Of a DNA stretch of 64,000 nt, positions 23,871-36,172 are shown one piece after another. The DNA is from Ignavibacteria bacterium (GTDB lineage: Bacteria > Bacteroidota > Ignavibacteria > Ignavibacteriales > SURF-24). A program made the position numbers and the translations under genes. The stretch lies in assembly GCA_025612245.1 (NCBI GenBank), contig JAAXKQ010000010.1, positions 1-64,000 on the forward strand, given 5' to 3'. The notes beneath the pieces were generated by a model. That model had not been told where the DNA came from, ran no database searches, and worked only from the letters and a program-made list of their open reading frames with translations. Position 1 is the stretch's first letter. Every line of letters starts with the position of its first letter.

Positions 23871-24854
23871 CTACTTGTTCCTTTCCAGTACCTTTACGGC
23901 GTCTTTGGCGAAATACGTGATGATCATGTCCGCGCCTGCTCTTTTTATTGCTGTCAGCGACTCCATCATAACCCTTTCTTCATCAATCCAGCCCATCTTT
24001 GAGGCTGCCTTTATGAGCGAGTATTCACCGCTTACCTGGTATGCTGCTGTCGGCATGCCGAAGGTTTCCTTAACCCTGTACAGTATGTCCAGGTACGCCC
24101 CGGCGGGCTTTACCATTACCATGTCGGCTCCTTCTTCAATATCCGCCTCAACTTCTCTCAGCGCTTCTTCTGCGTTGGCAACGTCCATCTGGTGCGACCT
24201 CCTGTCACCGAAAGCCGGCGTGGATTCGGCTGCGTCCCTGAAAGGCCCGTAGAATCCGGATGCGTACTTCGCGGCATAGCTCATAATCGGTATCTTCGTA
24301 AAGCCCTTATAATCGAGTGCCTTCCTGATGGCAAGTATCCTTCCGTCCATCATGTCCGAAGGAGCAATAATATCTGCGCCTGCCTCGGCGTGCGAAACGG
24401 CTTCCTTTGCCAGCAGCGATACGGTCTCGTCGTTTAATACTTCTTCTCCGTTAAGCAGACCGCAGTGCCCGTGCGACGTGTACTCGCAAAGGCATACGTC
24501 TGTAATTACAAGCAGGTTCTTTACTTCAGCCTTAATTGCTCTTATTGCCTTCTGAATTATACCGTTGGGGTCGTATGCCTCTGAACCCTGCTCGTCCTTG
24601 TGCTCCGGAATTCCGAATAACAGAACCGCGGGAATCCCCATCGAGGCTACTTCCTGGCATTCCTTTACGGCAACGTCAACCGACATCTGGTATACGCCGG
24701 GCATTGACTTGATCTCATTCTTTACATTCTCCCCGTGAACTACAAAAAGGGGATATATTAAATCGCTCTTGTTTATGTGTGTCTCACGCACCATGTCCCT
24801 TATAATGGGATTGTAACGCAGTCGTCTTAATCTTTTCGACGGATATACGGCCAT
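23871..24854 (-). CDS. hemB: Porphobilinogen synthase (delta-aminolevulinate dehydratase)
   Basis: About 327 aa; condenses two 5-aminolevulinates to porphobilinogen. Active-site lysines lie in [17 protein letters not shown] and [14 protein letters not shown]. The segment [16 protein letters not shown] contains three cysteines, indicating the zinc-dependent form. The frame opens at a TTG at 24866, but GGAG lies 8 nt before the ATG at 24854 and the family N-terminus [11 protein letters not shown] begins there, so 24854 is chosen. Last gene of the main heme transcript. Confidence 0.95.
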
Positions 24855-24937
24855 TTCTAACTCCAAAATAATTAATTTTAATTTTATAGCACTGCGGAAA
24901 TAACCCGCACAATGTTAATTTCATAATTTTTGCTGAC

Positions 24938-26320
24938 TTAAACCTGCTGCAGCAGGTCAAGCGCCTTTTTATAAACTGTTTCCGAACTTTTGATGCAGTC
25001 ACCTACTGAAATCCCGCCCCTGTAGTTGCCGCTTAAAAGTATGCCCCTGTGGAACTTCTCAAATTCCTCAAAATAATTTTCATGCTCAATGTAGCCAATG
25101 TTATACTGCGGAATTGCTCTCGGCCACATCTTGTCCACCCTGAACTGCGGCATGCCGGTAATCTTCATTACGTCCTGGAATTCAACCAACACCTGCCTTA
25201 TCAGGTCTTCCTTGTTCATGTCGTCAAAAAGCTGAGGCGAGCGCGCACCGCCTATGAAAATGGTAAAGGAGGCATATCCCTCGGGAGCCCTGTTCGGGAA
25301 AATTACCGAACTCCAGATTGCACCCAGATACGACTTGTTTTCCTTCTGGGGAATGAGATATCCGAAACCGTCTAAAGGCTGCCGGATGGATTCTTCCTTG
25401 TAGCCCAAATATAACACCATAACGGGTGGATAATAAATTGATTTAAGGTGACTGAAAAGTACGGTATCCATTTCCTGGAAGAGATAACACGCCGCGTGCG
25501 CCGGAATCGTTGAAATTACAACGTCTGCCTGAACCGATTCCATCACGCCGTTTTTCTTGTACTTTACCGTGTATGCTCCGCCGTCCCTTTCAATATTCTT
25601 TACCTCGGCGCCAAGTATCAGGTTTTCTTCCAGCTTTGCCGCAATGGCGTTCGGAAAGGTCTGCATCCCGTTCTTAAATGAAAACATCCTTGCACTCTGC
25701 TTTGAGGTTTCGGCACTCTGCTTCCTTTCCTTTGCTCCTTTGAACATCCCCTTTATCAGTCCGCCATAAACTTCCTCCAGGCGGTAGAGCTTCGGGAAAG
25801 CAGACTTGACGCTTAAATCATCCGGGTTCCCCGCATAGACACCCGCAACAAAGGGATTAATCGCATAGTCTAGAAATTCCTGCCCCAGACGCCTTCTTAC
25901 AAATTCCGCAATTGACTGGTAATATCCGTCGTTGGATTTACCCACAAATGGCTCCTTTAACAGCCTTAGCTTTGCTTTCGGGGAAAATAATTTCGTCGTA
26001 AGGAATGCACCGGCACCCGTAGGCAGTGCGCACAGCCGCCCGTCCCTTAATATATATCTCTTATTGCCTTCGGAACTTGCATATATCATTTCATCGGCTA
26101 TGCCCGTTTCCTCTGCAAGCTGCCTTATGAGTGGGGTTGTCTCAAGCCCGCTGTTCGGACCGTAATCTACAAGAAATTCATTTTCCCACGCACTGACCAT
26201 CGCACCGCCCGCCTGGCTGCTTTTCTCAATTACAGTTACTTCACATCCGTCTTTCTTTAACCAGTAGGCCGTGGCCAGCCCGGAGATTCCGGCTCCCAGT
26301 ATTACCGCTTTTTTGTTCAT
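24938..26320 (-). CDS. hemG: Protoporphyrinogen oxidase, HemY/HemG flavoprotein type
   Basis: A 460-aa FAD enzyme that oxidises protoporphyrinogen IX to protoporphyrin IX with O2 or another acceptor. The dinucleotide-binding motif is VILGAGISGLATAYWLKKDG; EKSSQAGGAM, DYGPNSGLETTPLIRQL and the C-terminal HRGILLSGNYRGGISVGDCI fit the HemY-type oxidase. It belongs to the heme transcript between hemH and hemB. Its O2-linked chemistry contrasts with the O2-independent HemN next door. Confidence 0.93.
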   Translation of the reverse strand: MNKKAVILGAGISGLATAYWLKKDGCEVTVIEKSSQAGGAMVSAWENEFLVDYGPNSGLETTPLIRQLAEETGIADEMIYASSEGNKRYILRDGRLCALPTGAGAFLTTKLFSPKAKLRLLKEPFVGKSNDGYYQSIAEFVRRRLGQEFLDYAINPFVAGVYAGNPDDLSVKSAFPKLYRLEEVYGGLIKGMFKGAKERKQSAETSKQSARMFSFKNGMQTFPNAIAAKLEENLILGAEVKNIERDGGAYTVKYKKNGVMESVQADVVISTIPAHAACYLFQEMDTVLFSHLKSIYYPPVMVLYLGYKEESIRQPLDGFGYLIPQKENKSYLGAIWSSVIFPNRAPEGYASFTIFIGGARSPQLFDDMNKEDLIRQVLVEFQDVMKITGMPQFRVDKMWPRAIPQYNIGYIEHENYFEEFEKFHRGILLSGNYRGGISVGDCIKSSETVYKKALDLLQQV

Positions 26321-26453: not shown

Positions 26454-27410
26454 TCAACCGTTTAACTTCTTCAATACTTCCTCGCATAACGCCTCAACAA
26501 AAAGAGGGGAATCGTTTAAGCCCGTCATTACTATGTAATTCTCAATCCCGGCTTTCTCGGCTACGTGCTTATACTCAATTCCAAGCTCATAGAGAGTTTC
26601 TACGTGGTCCGAGACAAAGCTGACGGGAATTAAAAGTAAGTGTTTTCTTCCCAGTAAAGCAAGCTCTTCAATTTTTTTACTCGTCGATGGCTCCAGCCAC
26701 TTTACGGGACCAACCTTGCTCTGGAAGCATTCATGATGCTCGTGCGAATTTTCCCTCTCCTCCATCACCAGCTCAACCGTCTTCTTTATCTGGTGACTGT
26801 ATGGGTCGCCTTTTTTAACGTAGCTTACCGGGGTGCCGTGCGCGCTGAAAACCAGATGCACGTCTTTCCTTATACCTTCAGGAAACCTCAAAAGGGCTTC
26901 ATCAATTCTTTCATTAATTGCCCTGATGTAGGCCGGGTTGTCGTAATAATTATTTACGCGTATAACCTTCGCGCTTTTATTCTTGAATGCCCTGTCCCAT
27001 TCATTAAACGAAGAGCCCGTCGTGGAGCTCGAAAAATGCGGGTACAGGGGCAGCAGCACAACCTGCTCATATCCTTTTTCTGACACCTCGCGCGCTATAT
27101 CTGCCGTCAAAGGATGCCAGTACCTCATGGCCGTATAAACGTCTGCCTCAAGATCCGAGCTCCTGAGGCTCTCTTCAAGATTCTTCCGCTGTAGCTCTGT
27201 CCAGTAGCCGATGGGCGACTTGCCTCCTATGAGCTTGTATTCCTCTACAACCTTGGGAGCCCTTCTGGAGGCTATAAATTTTGCCATAAAATCCTGGAAA
27301 GGCAGATTGAATATGTCCCTGTCGCTAAATAGGTTAGTCAGAAAGGGCTCCACCGCTTCCAGTGAATCCGGCCCGCCAAGGTTAAAGAGCACTACCGCGG
27401 TTTTCCTCAT
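26454..27410 (-). CDS. hemH: Ferrochelatase
   Basis: A 318-aa enzyme inserting Fe2+ into protoporphyrin IX to give protoheme. Family signatures are VVLFNLGGPDS, YPHFSSSTTGSS, and the catalytic histidine in HLVFSAHGTPVSYVKKGDPY, then PVSFVSDHVETLYELG. Its start overlaps the hemN stop codon by four bases (ATGA), implying translational coupling. Confidence 0.95.
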   Translation of the reverse strand: MRKTAVVLFNLGGPDSLEAVEPFLTNLFSDRDIFNLPFQDFMAKFIASRRAPKVVEEYKLIGGKSPIGYWTELQRKNLEESLRSSDLEADVYTAMRYWHPLTADIAREVSEKGYEQVVLLPLYPHFSSSTTGSSFNEWDRAFKNKSAKVIRVNNYYDNPAYIRAINERIDEALLRFPEGIRKDVHLVFSAHGTPVSYVKKGDPYSHQIKKTVELVMEERENSHEHHECFQSKVGPVKWLEPSTSKKIEELALLGRKHLLLIPVSFVSDHVETLYELGIEYKHVAEKAGIENYIVMTGLNDSPLFVEALCEEVLKKLNG

Positions 27411-28783
27411 ACGGTCCTCGAATATTTTGCTGTATCTTCTTTTCTTTCAATGTAGGCGTCAAAGTTCATGGCAACATTGCGTATAAGAAGCCTCCCCATT
27501 TCAGTTACCCTTAAACTCTCATCCGATATGGAAACAAGTCCGTCATTAACCATTTCTTTCAGGTTATTCAGGCCCCAGGCAAAGTATTCCTTAAAATTGA
27601 TCTTAAATTCATTTTCAATTTTGGGTATGTTAAGCTCAAAATCGCACATGAGCTTCATTATTACCTGATGCCTCAGATAGTCGTCGTCGCTTAAACGGTA
27701 GCCTTTCATAACAGGCAGTACCTCGCTGTCAATTGCTGCAAAATATTCTTTCTCAGTCTTGTAATTCTGCGCGTAAATCCTTTCAAGCTGGCTGATTGCC
27801 GTAATGCCCATTGCGTAAAGATCTGCTCCTGCGTTTGTGGAATATCCCTGGAAATTCCTGTAGAGCTTTTTCTCCCTTAATGCCACTGCCAGCTCGTCGT
27901 CGGGCTTTGCAAAGTGATCCATCCCAATGAAAACATACCCGGCAGACGTGAGCTTTTCTACCGTCATCTTTAATATCTGCAGCTTTTCTTCTGCCGCGGG
28001 GAGGTCCTCTGCATGTATGAGCGCCATATGCTTCTTAAGCCAGGGCAGATGCGCAAAATTAAAAACCGCAATCCTGTCGGGCGAAATGTCTATTACTTTG
28101 TCTACCGTCTCGCCAAAGGTTTCAATCGTCTGAAAAGGAAGCCCGTACATGAGGTCCAGGTTGATGCTGTGGAAGCCAAGCTCGCGCACCCACTGAACGG
28201 TCTGCCTCGTTATGTCCTCGGGCTGGATCCTGTTGACGGCCTTTTGAACCTTATCATTAAAATCCTGCACGCCCATGCTGATCCTGTTAAAGCCCCCGTT
28301 GCGCAATGCCTCAAGGTGATCGCGCGTAAGCCCCCGCGGATCAATCTCACAGCCTGCTTCAATGCCATCCTTAAAATTAAACGACCGGCTTATATACTGA
28401 ATGAGGTCAGCAATTTCATCCGGGTCCAGGTGTGTCGGTGTGCCTCCGCCCCAGTGCAGCTGCGCTACCTTCCTCTCGGGTAGTATGTATGCCCTTAGCA
28501 TGTCAATTTCTTTTTTCAGATACTTTACGTACTCTTTTACCCTGTCACGGTTGCGCGTTACAAGCATGTTGCATCCGCAGAAGTAACACAGCGTGTCACA
28601 GAAAGGAATGTGATAATAAAGCGAGAGATCGGGTAGATTGGTGCCGTAATTGGTTTTTATTATTTCATCAAGATACTGCTCGTGCTTAAAATTTTCATTG
28701 AACTGGGGCGCCGTGGGGTAACTGGTATAACGCGGACCCGGTTTATCATACTTCTTTATCATATCCAAATCAATCGTAAACAT
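27407..28783 (-). CDS. hemN: Oxygen-independent coproporphyrinogen III oxidase
   Basis: A 458-aa radical SAM enzyme that decarboxylates coproporphyrinogen III to protoporphyrinogen IX without oxygen. The cluster motif CxxxCxxC is at C62, C66 and C69 (FCDTLCYFCGC); GGGTPTHLDPDEI, GVQDFNDKVQKAVNRIQ and the N-terminal PGPRYTSYPTAPQF identify true HemN rather than HemW. It lies between hemE and hemH. Confidence 0.95.
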   Translation of the reverse strand: MFTIDLDMIKKYDKPGPRYTSYPTAPQFNENFKHEQYLDEIIKTNYGTNLPDLSLYYHIPFCDTLCYFCGCNMLVTRNRDRVKEYVKYLKKEIDMLRAYILPERKVAQLHWGGGTPTHLDPDEIADLIQYISRSFNFKDGIEAGCEIDPRGLTRDHLEALRNGGFNRISMGVQDFNDKVQKAVNRIQPEDITRQTVQWVRELGFHSINLDLMYGLPFQTIETFGETVDKVIDISPDRIAVFNFAHLPWLKKHMALIHAEDLPAAEEKLQILKMTVEKLTSAGYVFIGMDHFAKPDDELAVALREKKLYRNFQGYSTNAGADLYAMGITAISQLERIYAQNYKTEKEYFAAIDSEVLPVMKGYRLSDDDYLRHQVIMKLMCDFELNIPKIENEFKINFKEYFAWGLNNLKEMVNDGLVSISDESLRVTEMGRLLIRNVAMNFDAYIERKEDTAKYSRTV

Positions 28784-28838: not shown

Positions 28839-29885
28839 CTATTTATGGAAGCGCGGGCTTTCTTCCTTTACAAATTTTACAAGCGCCTTCAGGTTCTCCG
28901 GATCAGTGTCCGGAAGTATCCCGTGCCCGAGGTTAAATATGTGCCCCGTGCCATTGCCGTACGACTCCATTACCTCCAGGGCCTTCTTCCTGATGACGTC
29001 TTCCCGCGCGTATAAAACACACGGGTCCATGTTTCCCTGCAATGCTACTTTACCGCCTGTAAGATCCCGGACACTTTTCAGGTCCATCGTCCAGTCAAGC
29101 CCCAGAACATCAGCCCCCGAGGCTGTAAGCTCCTGCAGACAAAAATGAACACCCTTGGCAAAAACAATTACAGGCTCGTCTTTCTTTTTCAGCTCCGAAA
29201 TTACCTTCGTAATATATTGTAATGAAAATTCACTGAATTCCGAAGGGGATAGTATCCCGCCCCAGGTGTCGAATATCTGAACCGCATTTACACCCGCTTC
29301 AATCTTGGCGGAAAGATAATCCGCTACGGCTCTGGATATCTTGTCCAGTAATTCATGCGCAAGCCGCGGATTATCGTATATCATCTTCTTGATCTGCGAA
29401 AAATTCTTAGAGCCCCTTCCTTCCACCATGTACGTCAGAAGCGTCCAGGGCGATCCGCTGAAACCAATGAGCGGCACTCTCCCCCTTAAGGCGTCTTTTG
29501 TCATCTTTATTGCATCCATAACGTACTTGAGATCTCTGTACGGATCTATAGCCTTCAGACCTTTTGCCTCTTCAGCCGAACGGATGGGCTTAGGGAAGAC
29601 GGGACCTTTGCCCTCATTCATCTCCAGCTCCATTCCCATGGCTTCCGGTATTACAAGTATGTCCGAGAATATAATTGCTGCATCTACGCCTATAATCTCC
29701 ACCGGCTGAATCGTCACTTCCGAGGCCAGCTCCGGCGTCTTGCACATGGTCAGAAAGTCCGCTTTCTCCCTTATAGCCCTGTACTCAGGCAGGTACCGCC
29801 CCGCCTGCCTCATTACCCATACGGGTGTTCTTTCAACTTTCTGCCTCCTGCAGGCTCGTAAAAATAAGTCGTTTTCTATGTTCAA
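28839..29885 (-). CDS. hemE: Uroporphyrinogen decarboxylase
   Basis: A 348-aa enzyme removing four carboxyl groups from uroporphyrinogen III. The N-terminal signature RTPVWVMRQAGRYLPEYR and FSDILVIPEAMG (catalytic Asp) are present, as are GFSGSPWTLLTYMVEG and FNLGHGILPDTDPEN. It starts with TTG, with GGAG 5-6 nt upstream; no ATG candidate gives an intact N-terminus. Confidence 0.95.
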   Translation of the reverse strand: MNIENDLFLRACRRQKVERTPVWVMRQAGRYLPEYRAIREKADFLTMCKTPELASEVTIQPVEIIGVDAAIIFSDILVIPEAMGMELEMNEGKGPVFPKPIRSAEEAKGLKAIDPYRDLKYVMDAIKMTKDALRGRVPLIGFSGSPWTLLTYMVEGRGSKNFSQIKKMIYDNPRLAHELLDKISRAVADYLSAKIEAGVNAVQIFDTWGGILSPSEFSEFSLQYITKVISELKKKDEPVIVFAKGVHFCLQELTASGADVLGLDWTMDLKSVRDLTGGKVALQGNMDPCVLYAREDVIRKKALEVMESYGNGTGHIFNLGHGILPDTDPENLKALVKFVKEESPRFHK

Positions 29886-29903: not shown

Positions 29904-31307
29904 TTATGCCGTTTTGCCCGTTAAGAAATATTCCGTGAGCGCACTTAAAATCCCTTCCATCGTATACTCTTTGGGAAGTATATCCACCTGCAGACCCGAG
30001 CTTTCAATTTCCCGGGCAGTGGAGGGACCAATGGCTGCAACCACCATGCCTTCAAAGTACTTATTTACTTCTTTAACTTCCATTATCTGCAGGAAGTTTC
30101 TAAAAGAAGAGGGACTGGTAAAAATGAAAATGTCCGGCCTGATGCTTTGAAGCTTGCCCCTGTATAAACTTACCGTTTCTTCAGAAGGAACCGAGGTGTT
30201 GTATACGGCAGCCGTTCTTACAACTGCACCCATTTCCTTTAGCGAATCCGGAAGCTCTTTCCGTGCAATTGCTGAACCTGGAATAAAAATGTTTTTTCCC
30301 TTTACTTCATTTTCTTTAAGTTCTGCCAGTAGCCCCGCGGCGCTGAATTCCTTTGGATACATGCTTACCTTAATCCCATTCTCAGAACATACCGAAAAGG
30401 TCTTTTTGCCTACTGCAAGCACTTTTATTCCTGAGTAATTGGGCTTAAAGCCAAGCGCGCTGCACCTTTTAATGAACATCTTAACCGAATTGGTAGAAGT
30501 AAAAATCAGTATGTCGGTCTTGCCGAATTCTTTGATCGCGCTGTCAAAATCTTCCCAGCTCTCAGGCGGCACTACTTCAAGAGTAGGGAAGAGCACAACA
30601 CCTGCGCCGCACTGACTGAACATTGCAGCTGAGTCTTTGGAATCTTCCTCTGTCCTCGTAATAACAAGCGTTTTATTCTCAAGCGGAAGCTTCTTTCCCG
30701 GCCCCCCGGCGCTTAAGCCTTTTAATATAAAATCAAAAAGCCTTTCTCTTTCACCGTCAGTTTCCTCCTTGGAGTAGCTGCTGCTTACGGCCCTGTTTAC
30801 AGCCGCGTAAATGCTTCCAAGCACAACCTGCGCTGCAAAATCCGGGTCTGCCGTAAAAAAAACTTTCTCCCTTATGCCTTCACTTATTATATCCTTAAGC
30901 GTGCCGGTTAATTCATTTTTCCTTTCCCTGAATTCCGCACATCTGGTGTTTTGCGCCTTGAGGTTGTCCTTCTGAAACATGATAAAAAAACAGGAGTACT
31001 TAACCATGAACGCATAATTATGAATTACAAATGAATGCAGCGATTCAATTGCAGTCCGTTCTTCCTTGATCCTGCTTTTAAGAGAACTGATAAGATTTGT
31101 CATCCTTATAAGCATGATGGAAAAATAAAGGTCCTCCTTCGAGGCAAAGTAATTATAGAGCGTTCCCTTGGCAATCGAGGCCATTTTTGCCACGTCTTCC
31201 ATCATTACCTCGTGAAAGCTTTTCTCCGAAAAGAGCTGCGAGGCTGCTTCCATAATCCTTTCACGCTTATAATTCTTCTTGTCTGCTATTTTCTCACTGC
31301 CGGCCAA
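29904..31307 (-). CDS. hemD: TetR-type regulator fused to uroporphyrinogen-III synthase
   Basis: One uninterrupted 467-aa frame. Residues 1-199 form a TetR repressor: helix-turn-helix (MEDVAKMASIAKGTLYNYFASKEDLYF, in part) followed by a helical ligand-binding domain (about 70-199). After a short linker (AGGPGKKLP, about 200-209), residues 210-462 are HemD: VITRTEEDSKDSAAMFS, IFTSTNSVKMF, AVGKKTF and FTSPSSFRNFL. HemD closes the linear tetrapyrrole into uroporphyrinogen III. It lies between hemC and hemE, where hemD is expected, so the enzyme role is likely kept. The TetR part may let a tetrapyrrole or related ligand control transcription, for example of this operon; that is inference. It starts with TTG, 10 nt after hemC; starting at Met19 would cut the DNA-binding domain. 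Confidence 0.9.
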   Translation of the reverse strand: MAGSEKIADKKNYKRERIMEAASQLFSEKSFHEVMMEDVAKMASIAKGTLYNYFASKEDLYFSIMLIRMTNLISSLKSRIKEERTAIESLHSFVIHNYAFMVKYSCFFIMFQKDNLKAQNTRCAEFRERKNELTGTLKDIISEGIREKVFFTADPDFAAQVVLGSIYAAVNRAVSSSYSKEETDGERERLFDFILKGLSAGGPGKKLPLENKTLVITRTEEDSKDSAAMFSQCGAGVVLFPTLEVVPPESWEDFDSAIKEFGKTDILIFTSTNSVKMFIKRCSALGFKPNYSGIKVLAVGKKTFSVCSENGIKVSMYPKEFSAAGLLAELKENEVKGKNIFIPGSAIARKELPDSLKEMGAVVRTAAVYNTSVPSEETVSLYRGKLQSIRPDIFIFTSPSSFRNFLQIMEVKEVNKYFEGMVVAAIGPSTAREIESSGLQVDILPKEYTMEGILSALTEYFLTGKTA

Positions 31308-31317
31308 AACTGTTCTC

Positions 31318-32262
31318 TTATTTTAATCTGATGTTTTTATAAATGTCTTCAAGTATCTCACCGGCTCCCGCCTCAACAAGGTCCTTTGCTAGCGCCTGCC
31401 CCAGCTTGGCGCTGTCTTTCCTGCTTCCCCTTACTTTCTTCCTGAAGGTAACAGTTCCGTCAATTGCCCCTACAATGCCGTCCAAATACAGCCCGTTCGG
31501 CTTTACCCCTGCAAAAGCGCCAATCGGCACCTGACATCCGCCTTCAAGCGCCTTCAGGAAAGCCCTTTCGGCCATGGCTGCAATGTATGTCTCTTCATCG
31601 TGCACCGACCGGAGTATCTCTTCTGCCATGCTGTTCCCGGCAGATATTTCAAGTCCTAAGGCACCCTGGCCTACGGCCGGAAGTATCTCTTCTACCGGAA
31701 TAATGGAGGAAATATGCTTCTTTAAGCCCAGGCGCTCAACTCCCGCACGCGCAAGTATTATTGCATCCCATCCGGACTCCTCAAACTTCTTTATCCTGGT
31801 GGGCACGTTGCCCCTGAGCTCAACAATCTTTAGGTCGGGACGTATATGCAGCAGCTGCGCCCTTCTTCTTAAGGACCCCGTGGCAACAATTGCCCCTTCC
31901 TTAAGATCACTGATTGTCATCCCTTTTTTACGCGCAATGAGCGCGTCTTCAACAGGGTGACGCTTTGTAACTGCTGCAAGCTTCAGCCCTTCGGGTATGT
32001 CCGTCTGCAGGTCCTTCAGACTGTGTACGGCAAGGTCTATCCTGCCGTTAAGAAGTTCAACCTCCAGCTCCTTTGTAAAAAGCCCCTTGTCTCCTATCTT
32101 CGAGAGCGCAACGTCCAGTATCTTGTCTCCCTTGGTCTTTACAAGCCTGATTTCAACGGAAACCGACTTGTTTTTTCTTTCAATTTCCTTTTTTATAAAG
32201 TTAGACTGCCACATAGCAAGCTCGCTGCCGCGCGATCCGATTATAATGGTTTGCTTTTTCAA
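31318..32262 (-). CDS. hemC: Porphobilinogen deaminase (hydroxymethylbilane synthase)
   Basis: A 314-aa enzyme assembling four porphobilinogens into hydroxymethylbilane. The dipyrromethane cofactor cysteine is C243 in ALEGGCQVPIGAF; IGSRGSELAMWQS, HSLKDLQTDIPEG and ATGSLRRRAQLL are diagnostic. TTG start with GAGGGA upstream. Directly followed by the TetR-HemD gene. Confidence 0.96.
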   Translation of the reverse strand: MKKQTIIIGSRGSELAMWQSNFIKKEIERKNKSVSVEIRLVKTKGDKILDVALSKIGDKGLFTKELEVELLNGRIDLAVHSLKDLQTDIPEGLKLAAVTKRHPVEDALIARKKGMTISDLKEGAIVATGSLRRRAQLLHIRPDLKIVELRGNVPTRIKKFEESGWDAIILARAGVERLGLKKHISSIIPVEEILPAVGQGALGLEISAGNSMAEEILRSVHDEETYIAAMAERAFLKALEGGCQVPIGAFAGVKPNGLYLDGIVGAIDGTVTFRKKVRGSRKDSAKLGQALAKDLVEAGAGEILEDIYKNIRLK

Positions 32263-32297: not shown

Positions 32298-33563
32298 CTA
32301 ATCGTGGTCCAGACCGAAAATGCTCCTGATCACGTTAACTTTCATCGCCGATTCCTGCGTATTAACGCCGTTTTCGCTGATCCTCTTCAGCTCTACAGTC
32401 GGCTGATGTAAAAGCTTATTTATTATGCGCTTTGTGACCATTTCCAGCTTTTCAACGTCTTCAGGATTCAGTTTATTCTTAATTTTATCCACTTCCTCAA
32501 GCCGTATGTCTTCAAAAACCTGCCTTAAAGCCCTTATTGTCGGCGTAACTTCAAGCGAATTGTACCACCCGAAGAGATTTACCAGCTCTTCCATAATTAT
32601 AGACTGAACCTTCGGCAATTCTCCCTGACGCTTCTTGACGTTCTGATCTACAATTATCTTGAGCGAATCTATGTCGTGGTAAAATACACTGTCGAGTTCC
32701 CGTATACTGGGATCAATGTCCCTTGGAATGGCAATATCCATCATAATCGTCGGCGCGCCGTTTCTTTTCTTCATGGAAGCCCTGACGTCATCATAAGTCA
32801 ATATTAAATCCGGTGCGCTCGTGGCGCTTATAATGATGTCGTAATCGTGCAGGCATTCCCTGAAACTTGAGAAGGGGATAGCATTGGCATGAATTGCTGA
32901 GGCTAGCTTCTCGGCCTTTTCCATGGTCCTGTTTGTAAGAGAAAGCGTCCCTATCCCTTTATCCCGCAGGTGCTTTGCTGCAATCTCACCCGTTTCTCCC
33001 GTCCCTATTACGAGTGCCGATTTCCTGCTGAGACTGGAGAATATCTTCTCTATCAGCTGCACAGCGGCATAGCTTACCGTAATGGCTCCGTCACTTATTA
33101 TGGTCTCGGTTTTGGCGCGCTTACCGACTTTTATTGCCGAATCAAATATCCTTTTCATCAAAAACCCGGCAAAATCGAATTCCTCCGAAATCTGGAAGGA
33201 TTCCTTTACCTGCCCGAGTATCTGATTATCCCCTAAAAGCAGGGAATCTATGCCGGCGCTTACCCGGAATAGGTGATTTACAGCACCGCAGGAAAAGTAA
33301 TTCTGGAAATTGTCCGGACGTATATCTCCTACAGGCTTCATTTCCATGAGGAATTTCTGCAGATCCTTGAAGTTTGTGCGGGGATTTATGGGAAATCCGT
33401 AAATCTCGGTGCGGTTGCACGTGGAAATGATAAACCCCTCGCTGAACAGGTTTCCTTTAAGCTCCTTCAGGAAACTCTTTATTTCCTCGGTGCTTAAATG
33501 CAGGCTTTCCCTCAACTCTACGGGCGCTGTTCTATGATTTATGCTTACTGCTAGTAAATTCAT
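32298..33563 (-). CDS. hemA: Glutamyl-tRNA reductase
   Basis: A 421-aa enzyme reducing glutamyl-tRNA(Glu) to glutamate-1-semialdehyde with NADPH, the first committed step of the C5 pathway. The catalytic cysteine is C49 in IISTCNRTEIYG; GDNQILGQVK, VIGTGETGEIAAKHL (NADPH site) and ISATSAPDLIL match, and the C-terminal helical dimerisation domain is complete. Followed by hemC after 35 nt. Confidence 0.96.
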   Translation of the reverse strand: MNLLAVSINHRTAPVELRESLHLSTEEIKSFLKELKGNLFSEGFIISTCNRTEIYGFPINPRTNFKDLQKFLMEMKPVGDIRPDNFQNYFSCGAVNHLFRVSAGIDSLLLGDNQILGQVKESFQISEEFDFAGFLMKRIFDSAIKVGKRAKTETIISDGAITVSYAAVQLIEKIFSSLSRKSALVIGTGETGEIAAKHLRDKGIGTLSLTNRTMEKAEKLASAIHANAIPFSSFRECLHDYDIIISATSAPDLILTYDDVRASMKKRNGAPTIMMDIAIPRDIDPSIRELDSVFYHDIDSLKIIVDQNVKKRQGELPKVQSIIMEELVNLFGWYNSLEVTPTIRALRQVFEDIRLEEVDKIKNKLNPEDVEKLEMVTKRIINKLLHQPTVELKRISENGVNTQESAMKVNVIRSIFGLDHD

Positions 33564-33608: not shown

Positions 33609-34433
33609 TCAATAAAAAGAATGAAAACTCTTTGCCAGGAAGTTTGTAAGCAGGATAGAGAAAATTGCCAGGCAGAATCCTGCTATTGAAAATACAATTA
33701 CCTTTTTGCCCCTCCATCCGCCCACAGTTTTGCTTAAAATTCCAACCCCGTATAAAATCCATACAAAAGCCGTCGCAACAAGTTTCGGATCAAAGTAATT
33801 GAAATTCGGAAAAGCCGAAGGAAGCCATACAGCCCCAATAATAATTGCAATCGTAAGGAGCACAAAACCGATAACAACCGAATAATAACTCAATTGCTCA
33901 AGTTTTTCCAGGCTCGGCAGACGCTCGAAAATGAGCCCGAACCTGTTTAATTTGATTTCTTTATATAATATCCAGAAAAGCAGACCGTAAACAGCAGAAA
34001 TCGTTATACCCGAATACCCCAAAAGCGCACTTACAACGTGAAGCCCTAACATCCGGTTGCGCAATACCTCGCGCACCGCGGTTAAATCCTGTATGAAAAA
34101 TGACGAAATCAGCTGAAAAATCAGCGAAAACACAATTATAAATAATCCCGTACCCCTTATATCCGTCAAAAGCTCCAGTATGAAATAACTGCAGCTGATT
34201 GCAAAAGCCAGCACGGTAAAAATTTCAAAAACATTCGTAATTGGAGGATGATTGAAATCGATAGTCCTCGCCATCAAATAAAATGTATGAAAAATCAGCG
34301 TTACAAACAGGAAAATTCGCTTGGAATTGGACCATTTGTTCCTTTCCTTCACAAAATCATACAAATAAACCAGAAAAGTAAGGCTGTAAAGCAAGGGTAA
34401 AAGGATATTAAGTGTTTTTATTGAGGAATACAT
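33609..34433 (-). CDS. CcsA/HemX-like cytochrome c assembly membrane protein
   Basis: A 274-aa protein with about eight membrane helices and the cytochrome C assembly (CcsA/CcmC-like) pattern. FYLMARTIDFNHPPITNVFEIF, LHVVSALLGYSGITISAVYGLLFW and GAVWLPSAFPNF resemble the heme-handling CcsA core, but the Trp-rich motif is only partly kept. In Bacillus the related hemX follows hemA in the heme operon and lowers HemA abundance; here it precedes hemA, so either a heme-export or a HemX-like role is possible. First gene of the heme transcript. Confidence 0.8.
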   Translation of the reverse strand: MYSSIKTLNILLPLLYSLTFLVYLYDFVKERNKWSNSKRIFLFVTLIFHTFYLMARTIDFNHPPITNVFEIFTVLAFAISCSYFILELLTDIRGTGLFIIVFSLIFQLISSFFIQDLTAVREVLRNRMLGLHVVSALLGYSGITISAVYGLLFWILYKEIKLNRFGLIFERLPSLEKLEQLSYYSVVIGFVLLTIAIIIGAVWLPSAFPNFNYFDPKLVATAFVWILYGVGILSKTVGGWRGKKVIVFSIAGFCLAIFSILLTNFLAKSFHSFY

Positions 34434-34564
34434 ATGCTTTTCATGAAAATGACTGATGGGTCAAAAATAATAACTATTTCCAATATGTGCAACTCATAAT
34501 TCCCGCCATGGGGAAGGGGGAAAGGAAAAATGCTTAATGAGAGCGGGGAAAGAAATGTTTAATG

Positions 34565-34608
34565 CTGAATTTTACTTTTTACTTTTTAATTTTTACTTTT
34601 TAATTTCA
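34565..34608. repeat. Family C heptamer array
   Basis: Degenerate TTTTTAA/TTTTTAC units, the complement of AATTAAA-type repeats, lie in the 215-nt gap between the heme operon and gmd. The surrounding gap has no gene. Confidence 0.6.
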
Positions 34609-35821: not shown

Positions 35822-36172
35822 TTAATTGCCTTGAGATACTTTGCTGCATATTGAGCCTAATATCCTTTTTAATTCTTCTGATTCACCCTTCAGTTTACTT
35901 AATTGTAAAGAATCTCCAATCTGAAGATTCTCCAGAATTCTCAACCAAAAATTCGATTCTCGCATTTCCCTCAATGAAATATTAACCTTACTTTTGAAAT
36001 CGGCTCTGGATGAAGCTGCCTGAGCTTCTTCATAATTGGCAGGACTGGATGTTGCAGACCTGATCAATTGGTTTTTTATAATACTGGTTTCTTTAGAATA
36101 TTTCAAAGTTTTTAGAAACCTAATTACATCAATTGCAAATTTAAATAATCTTTGATTTAGATCGTGATCCAT
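35822..36172 (-). CDS. Four-helix-bundle protein, S23/IVP (Avd-like) family
   Basis: A 116-aa all-helical protein of the S23 family first known from 23S rRNA intervening sequences. The core signature QLIRSATSSPANYEEAQAA, then ADFKSKVNISLREMRESNFWLRIL, is clear. Relatives include Avd of diversity-generating retroelements, which binds the reverse transcriptase and RNA; the function of free-standing members is unknown. It is bracketed by AATTAAA-type heptamer arrays (family C). No reverse transcriptase or rRNA is nearby. No Shine-Dalgarno precedes the ATG. A diverged paralog lies at 45957 inside arrays of another family. Confidence 0.85.
   Translation of the reverse strand: MDHDLNQRLFKFAIDVIRFLKTLKYSKETSIIKNQLIRSATSSPANYEEAQAASSRADFKSKVNISLREMRESNFWLRILENLQIGDSLQLSKLKGESEELKRILGSICSKVSQGN

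Follow-up and report, generated by a model that had tools for sequence, protein, structure and literature searches.

A TetR domain fused to uroporphyrinogen-III synthase in the hem operon of Ignavibacteriales: a likely enzyme and predicted autoregulator

We describe a protein encoded in a stretch of 64,000 nucleotides from an Ignavibacteria bacterium (hereafter the window), in which a TetR-type regulator is joined to uroporphyrinogen-III synthase (HemD). Comparison with related genomes shows that the fusion is real and old, that its enzyme half is a single-copy HemD with its catalytic residues kept, and that a candidate operator at the hem promoter comes and goes with the TetR half. Taken together, these observations make it likely that an active HemD and a DNA-binding autoregulator of the hem operon are combined in one protein. 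DNA binding, dimerisation, the sign of regulation and the ligand are what we infer from sequence.

The fused gene and its surroundings are listed in Table 1. The Pfam HEM4 match (PF02602) extends over residues 227–454 (E 5e-52) and is near full length, covering model positions 4–230 of 231 at 177 bits; like the TetR_N match, it clears its cut-off by a wide margin. The AlphaFold model of the fusion consists of two confident domains and a poorly ordered linker at about residues 200–208; in Foldseek, the second half has uroporphyrinogen-III synthases as its neighbours, and the first half Bacillus FadR and Thermus PfmR. The first half has the make-up of the TetR family, with an N-terminal TetR helix-turn-helix (HTH) and an all-helical C-terminal domain (Pfam, AlphaFold model). 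The open reading frame, Pfam and AlphaFold/Foldseek thus bear out the initial annotation, which had proposed a TetR domain (residues 1–199) and HemD in one frame; its layout of a complete TetR, a short linker and HemD also holds, except that its HemD start at residue 210 is slightly off, the linker lying nearer to 200–208 by pLDDT.

Table 1. Features of the TetR-HemD fusion, the hem operon and its promoter region in the window
Feature	Coordinates	Strand	Basis or remark
TetR-HemD fusion	29904..31307	(-)	single intact ORF, 467 aa, TTG start
TetR_N helix-turn-helix DNA-binding domain, residues 18-62	31122..31256	(-)	Pfam PF00440, E 2e-14
TetR C-terminal ligand/dimerisation domain, FadR-like, residues 63-199	30711..31121	(-)	FadR model and PDB matches
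Linker, residues 200-208	30684..30710	(-)	pLDDT <60
Uroporphyrinogen-III synthase (HemD) domain, residues 209-462	29922..30683	(-)	Pfam HEM4
ccsA-like cytochrome c assembly protein, first operon gene	33609..34433	(-)	domain search
hemA	32298..33563	(-)	domain search
hemC	31318..32262	(-)	domain search
hemE	28839..29885	(-)	domain search
hemN	27407..28783	(-)	domain search
hemH ferrochelatase	26454..27410	(-)	domain search
Protoporphyrinogen oxidase (hemG/hemY type)	24938..26320	(-)	amine oxidoreductase family and operon context
hemB	23871..24866	(-)	domain search
O2 operator (candidate) TGACCCATCAGTCA	34450..34463	(-)	perfect; 17-30 bp before ccsA start, abuts -7 box
Bacteroidota-type -7 box TATTTTTG, hem operon promoter (putative)	34462..34469	(-)	consensus match
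O1 place, degenerate in this species TTCCCCATGGCGGG	34502..34515	(-)	genus mate intact: TGACCGGTGGGTCT

On the minus strand the genes follow each other in the order ccsA, hemA, hemC, TetR-hemD, hemE, hemN, hemH, protoporphyrinogen oxidase and hemB. The fusion is therefore located, as first annotated, in the hemD position of a heme operon, between hemC and hemE of a full hem operon. No Rfam match to an RNA element was found in the window. A lipoprotein-like gene of ~200 aa with a weak PepSY-like match lies between hemC and hemD in fused and unfused relatives alike (L068:6490-7110 and about 25 other loci) and is absent from the window. Two further features of the window were noted: short intergenic AAAAAGTAAAA repeats at about 34570–34605, upstream of the hem promoter, and an ORF of 116 aa at 35822–36172 between two nucleotide-sugar genes, whose product, presumably, resembles a four-helix-bundle protein of the 23S rRNA intervening-sequence type.

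Two families of the Ignavibacteriales, a group of bacteria most of which are uncultured, carry full-length TetR-HemD fusions in the same operon place, in about 47 genomes altogether and with identities of 36–74%. In the window's own family, four of five genomes carry the fusion, and the three other proteins are 50–74% identical to that of the window; the sister family contributes about 43 genomes (36–51% identity to the window protein). According to database records, the fusion-bearing relatives are Ignavibacteriales metagenome-assembled genomes (MAGs) from independently named assemblies. In 40 fused loci the fused gene occupies the same place in the hem operon, where 40 unfused loci of relatives have a plain hemD.

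A sequencing, assembly or frame error joining two genes, for which only the oddity of the architecture speaks, had been considered possible across 30680–30720. The same full-length open frame in about 47 genomes from independent assemblies contradicts it and rules such an error out; we regard it as vanishingly improbable. Separate, neighbouring TetR and hemD genes in close relatives would likewise have pointed to two genes, and no TetR gene adjoining hemD was recognised in the 40 unfused loci. Nor did 395 sampled genomes of the phylum yield close stand-alone relatives of the TetR half at E 1e-16.

In a tree built from five operon proteins, eight changes are needed to account for the fused or unfused label, and the fused rows group in a single clade made up of the two families. 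This pattern is most easily read as one gain followed by repeated losses, with the root of the tree, and hence the direction of the change, not proven. The tree of the HemD half was poorly resolved. Three peculiarities were seen among the relatives. The hemD place of genus g29 holds a tandem HemD-HemD fusion, a frame of about 570 aa without the TetR half (L118:6640-8358 and L119:6002-7702, genomes G076 and G075). Genome G071 has two hem operons, one of them fused; the other looks nearly the same as that of G083 (L101 G071:C27; L102 G083:C8) and is thus probably MAG contamination. Finally, one fused orthologue near a contig edge (L037, G028:C458:252-1625) has a TAA within the matched stretch.

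As regards the enzyme half, Y369 aligns with Y168 of the human enzyme, which we take to be the proposed catalytic Tyr of uroporphyrinogen-III synthase, and is kept in all 40 fused proteins, as is T430 of the IGPTT motif. The fused HemD is the sole HEM4 protein in each of the 15 fused genomes with a hem operon that were checked. With a single HEM4 copy, a functioning pathway has to obtain its uroporphyrinogen III from the HemD half, and we infer that it is the cell's only, and active, uroporphyrinogen-III synthase. The dN/dS ratio, estimable in seven of nine close pairs, was 0.02–0.15 for both halves, rough values, as most pairs are close to saturation at synonymous sites; the TetR half often evolves more slowly than the HemD half. 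These ratios indicate that both halves of the fusion are under selection.

Mean conservation over the 40 fused proteins was highest for the HTH (0.81), followed by the HemD half (0.68) and the TetR ligand domain (0.62), which indicates that the DNA-binding part is under strong constraint. Within the HTH, A46, K47, G48, T49, Y51, K57, E58 and Y61 are invariant; in the ligand domain, Y98, K103 and C123 are near-invariant (37 of 40 proteins). Bacillus FadR, a TetR family acyl-CoA sensor (3whb/3whc, 5gp9), is the nearest relative of the TetR half by both sequence and fold: FadR entries are its best PDB sequence matches, and the model superposes on FadR chains with a TM of about 0.8 (target-normalised). 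The TetR half covers positions 3–188 of 190 of the NCBIfam FadR model NF053878 and scores 72 bits against a cut-off of 200; it is FadR-related, but by this cut-off is not a member of the FadR family.

A palindrome, TGACYnnnnRGTCA, is common to the regions upstream of ccsA in fused genomes. Matches of at least 9/10 were present there in 28 of 34 fused and none of 29 unfused genomes, shuffles giving an expectation of 0.4 and 0.25 sites, respectively; as the motif was discovered on the same promoters used for counting, the shuffles, the unfused genomes and the lpd sites described below serve as guards. A Fisher test of the association gave 2e-12, a value that treats genomes as independent though they are related. 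The tree-based pairs test is fairer but weaker: in independent pairs on the operon tree the operator follows the fusion state 5:0, with p 0.06 (under a looser threshold, median 0.03), the p value being limited by the five informative pairs. Fused loci totalling 517 kb contained 20 perfect sites, of which 19 lie immediately before ccsA; 471 kb of unfused loci contained none. In the window's genome there are six perfect sites in 4.84 Mb. The hem site at 34450–34463 is the only intergenic one; the other five, which are inside genes, were rejected as targets and taken as chance. The initial annotation had pointed to the promoter region at 34.4 kb, and a cognate-looking candidate operator does lie there.

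Both sites, O1 and O2, are present in 19 fused genomes, 14 of which space them 52–53 bp apart, about five helical turns. O2 abuts or overlaps the TATTTTTG box, which fits TAnnTTTG, the consensus of the Bacteroidota element as used in published papers. O1 is located 31–32 bp from the -7 box in 15 of 22 genomes and is off that value in seven. The fusion is thus accompanied by what a TetR regulator is expected to have, a palindromic operator near the target promoter, with binding predicted. Since O1 is degenerate in this species and the window's own family has no lpd site (see below), it is O2 that here supports regulation. Counter to the general pattern, members of genus g15 (L092-L094) carry the fusion with no operator before ccsA. 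Their TetR half is fast-evolving, with H32, K103, C123 and mostly Y98 changing together (K103 and C123 in three of three members, Y98 in two of three).

A search for perfect matches genome-wide in other fused genomes revealed recurrent sites upstream of lpd, which is followed in its operon by lipB and the gene for a 2-oxoacid dehydrogenase E1. Sites of at least 9/10 occur there in 19 of 27 fused versus one of 22 unfused genomes, with an expectation of 0.34 in each set; with the five discovery genomes removed, 14 of 22 fused genomes retain a site. The lone unfused match, at -21, is outside the usual place. In g15, a weak site (8/10) at the right place is kept in two of the fused members, and the unfused members are without it. 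Genomes of the window's own family have no such site, and we therefore do not claim the lpd target for the window's organism.

The distance from the lpd operator to the -7 box is 41–42 bp in 13 genomes, 51–52 bp in six (including L279, read with its TATATTA box) and 62 bp in two. These are steps of one helical turn, which keep the site on one helix face; in a rough model the chance of such phasing is about 1e-4 if five lineages are treated as independent, or 0.006 if only three distinct values are counted. As phasing of this kind is that of activator sites, the fusion probably activates the 2-oxoacid dehydrogenase operon lpd-lipB-E1 in relatives. We are much less sure of the sign of regulation at lpd, and of the ligand, than of the enzyme and autoregulator. 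Two other sites were looked at. The one near recR keeps a constant position of about -165 whether or not the genome has the fusion, and is thus probably coding, so recR was rejected as a third target. In genus g9, a perfect operator precedes a YceI-family gene close to the hem operon by 171 bp in only two genomes, G022 and G023 (L343, L354, L070:13533); this gene is a possible third target there.

These distributions bear on whether the TetR half binds DNA at all. It could be a passenger or structural relic, with the operator belonging to another, co-inherited regulator, and sequence alone leaves room for a second regulator of the same distribution. Such a relic would hardly be expected to keep its HTH as the most conserved part of the protein, and the operator tracks the fusion even inside g15 (at lpd) and from one sister genus to another in the window's family; moreover, the surroundings of the operon showed no further TetR gene. 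We thus consider a passenger role improbable.

In the autoregulator reading that we prefer, the TetR half would dimerise and bind the palindrome. At its own hem promoter, a protein on O2 would cover the -7 box and the start region and should thus act as a repressor, resulting in negative autoregulation; O1, where present, lies just upstream of this promoter. At lpd-lipB-E1 of many relatives, the protein would activate from a single site, separated from the -7 box by about 41, 52 or 62 bp. DNA binding would be switched by an effector seated in the FadR-like pocket; an acyl-CoA is the most likely candidate, a tetrapyrrole a less likely one. The original name of TetR repressor suits O2, which is placed to block the hem start, and does not suit the upstream sites, which are placed like activator sites; the label may be only half right. 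The proposal that one protein both makes uroporphyrinogen III and regulates the pathway agrees with the conserved HTH, the cognate-looking operator and the sole HemD copy; its further part, that a tetrapyrrole is sensed, is more tentative.

Two versions of this autoregulator reading differ in what is sensed. It is quite possible that the FadR-like pocket binds an acyl-CoA, such as the product of lpd-lipB-E1, and thereby matches heme supply to respiratory carbon oxidation. The closest sequence and fold neighbours, Bacillus FadR (acyl-CoA bound in 3whc) and Thermus PfmR, and the identity of the second target are consistent with this, whereas conservation within the fusion is lowest in the pocket domain, TetR ligands change easily in evolution, and the window's own family is without the lpd site. 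Tetrapyrrole feedback setting the output of the hem operon is a more tentative option, through binding of hydroxymethylbilane or uroporphyrinogen III by the HemD half or of heme by the TetR pocket. It would suit a hem operon target, the conservation of Cys123 (37/40) and His96 (33 of 40 fused proteins) and the sensing by a HemD domain proposed for NnaR (PMC11162112); against it, nothing connects the conserved His or Cys with heme, and both the resemblance of the TetR half to acyl-CoA sensors and the acyl-CoA-making second operon point elsewhere. Given a FadR-like TetR half and an acyl-CoA-producing second target in relatives, an acyl-CoA appears at least as likely as a tetrapyrrole. One could also imagine a dual factor that combines two inputs, a tetrapyrrole sensed by HemD and an acyl-CoA sensed in the TetR pocket, repressing hem from O2 and, in relatives, activating lpd-lipB-E1, and perhaps hem from O1, through phased sites; we hold this to be rather unlikely.

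Searches of the literature, which covered open-licence papers, found no prior report of a TetR-HemD fusion. Other HemD fusions involve uroporphyrinogen methyltransferase, HemC (PMC4921024) or HemX (NF005411), partners that are pathway enzymes or a membrane protein, whereas here the partner is a DNA-binding regulator. Bacillus FadR, unlike the fusion, stands alone with no enzyme domain and regulates fatty acid degradation. BirA and PutA are familiar examples of enzymes acting as repressors of their own operon (PMC6978683); the fusion resembles them as a pathway enzyme proposed to regulate its own operon, and differs in fold and pathway, with TetR joined to HemD and, in relatives, an unlinked second target operon.

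The nearest parallel is NnaR (Rv0260c, MSMEG_0432, SCO2958), an actinomycete HemD-OmpR orphan regulator with an experimentally shown role in nitrate/nitrite assimilation; for Streptomyces its HemD is reported to be inactive, and M. smegmatis has another hemD (PMC6277429, PMC11162112). Sensing by its HemD domain has been proposed, not demonstrated (PMC11162112). Both proteins combine HemD with a DNA-binding domain, and NnaR is a working transcription factor. The order is reversed, however: NnaR has an N-terminal HemD and a C-terminal winged helix of OmpR type, the fusion an N-terminal TetR and a C-terminal HemD. Furthermore, in place of an inactive HemD backed by a second gene, the 15 fused genomes have a single HEM4 protein with its catalytic residues kept, and the predicted target is the hem operon itself instead of nitrate/nitrite genes. 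Since enzyme-regulators and NnaR are known, the kind of protein is known, and what is new here is a TetR domain in the place of OmpR, the need for the HemD to be active and a hem target. If our reading is correct, a heme enzyme would control its own operon via a domain fusion that dates back to the early history of two families and was kept with repeated losses, and the lpd-lipB-E1 target of relatives would, unexpectedly, connect the supply of heme with acyl-CoA metabolism. Such a protein, unlike NnaR with its reportedly inactive HemD, would make it possible to ask how catalysis and DNA binding are coupled in a working biosynthetic enzyme.
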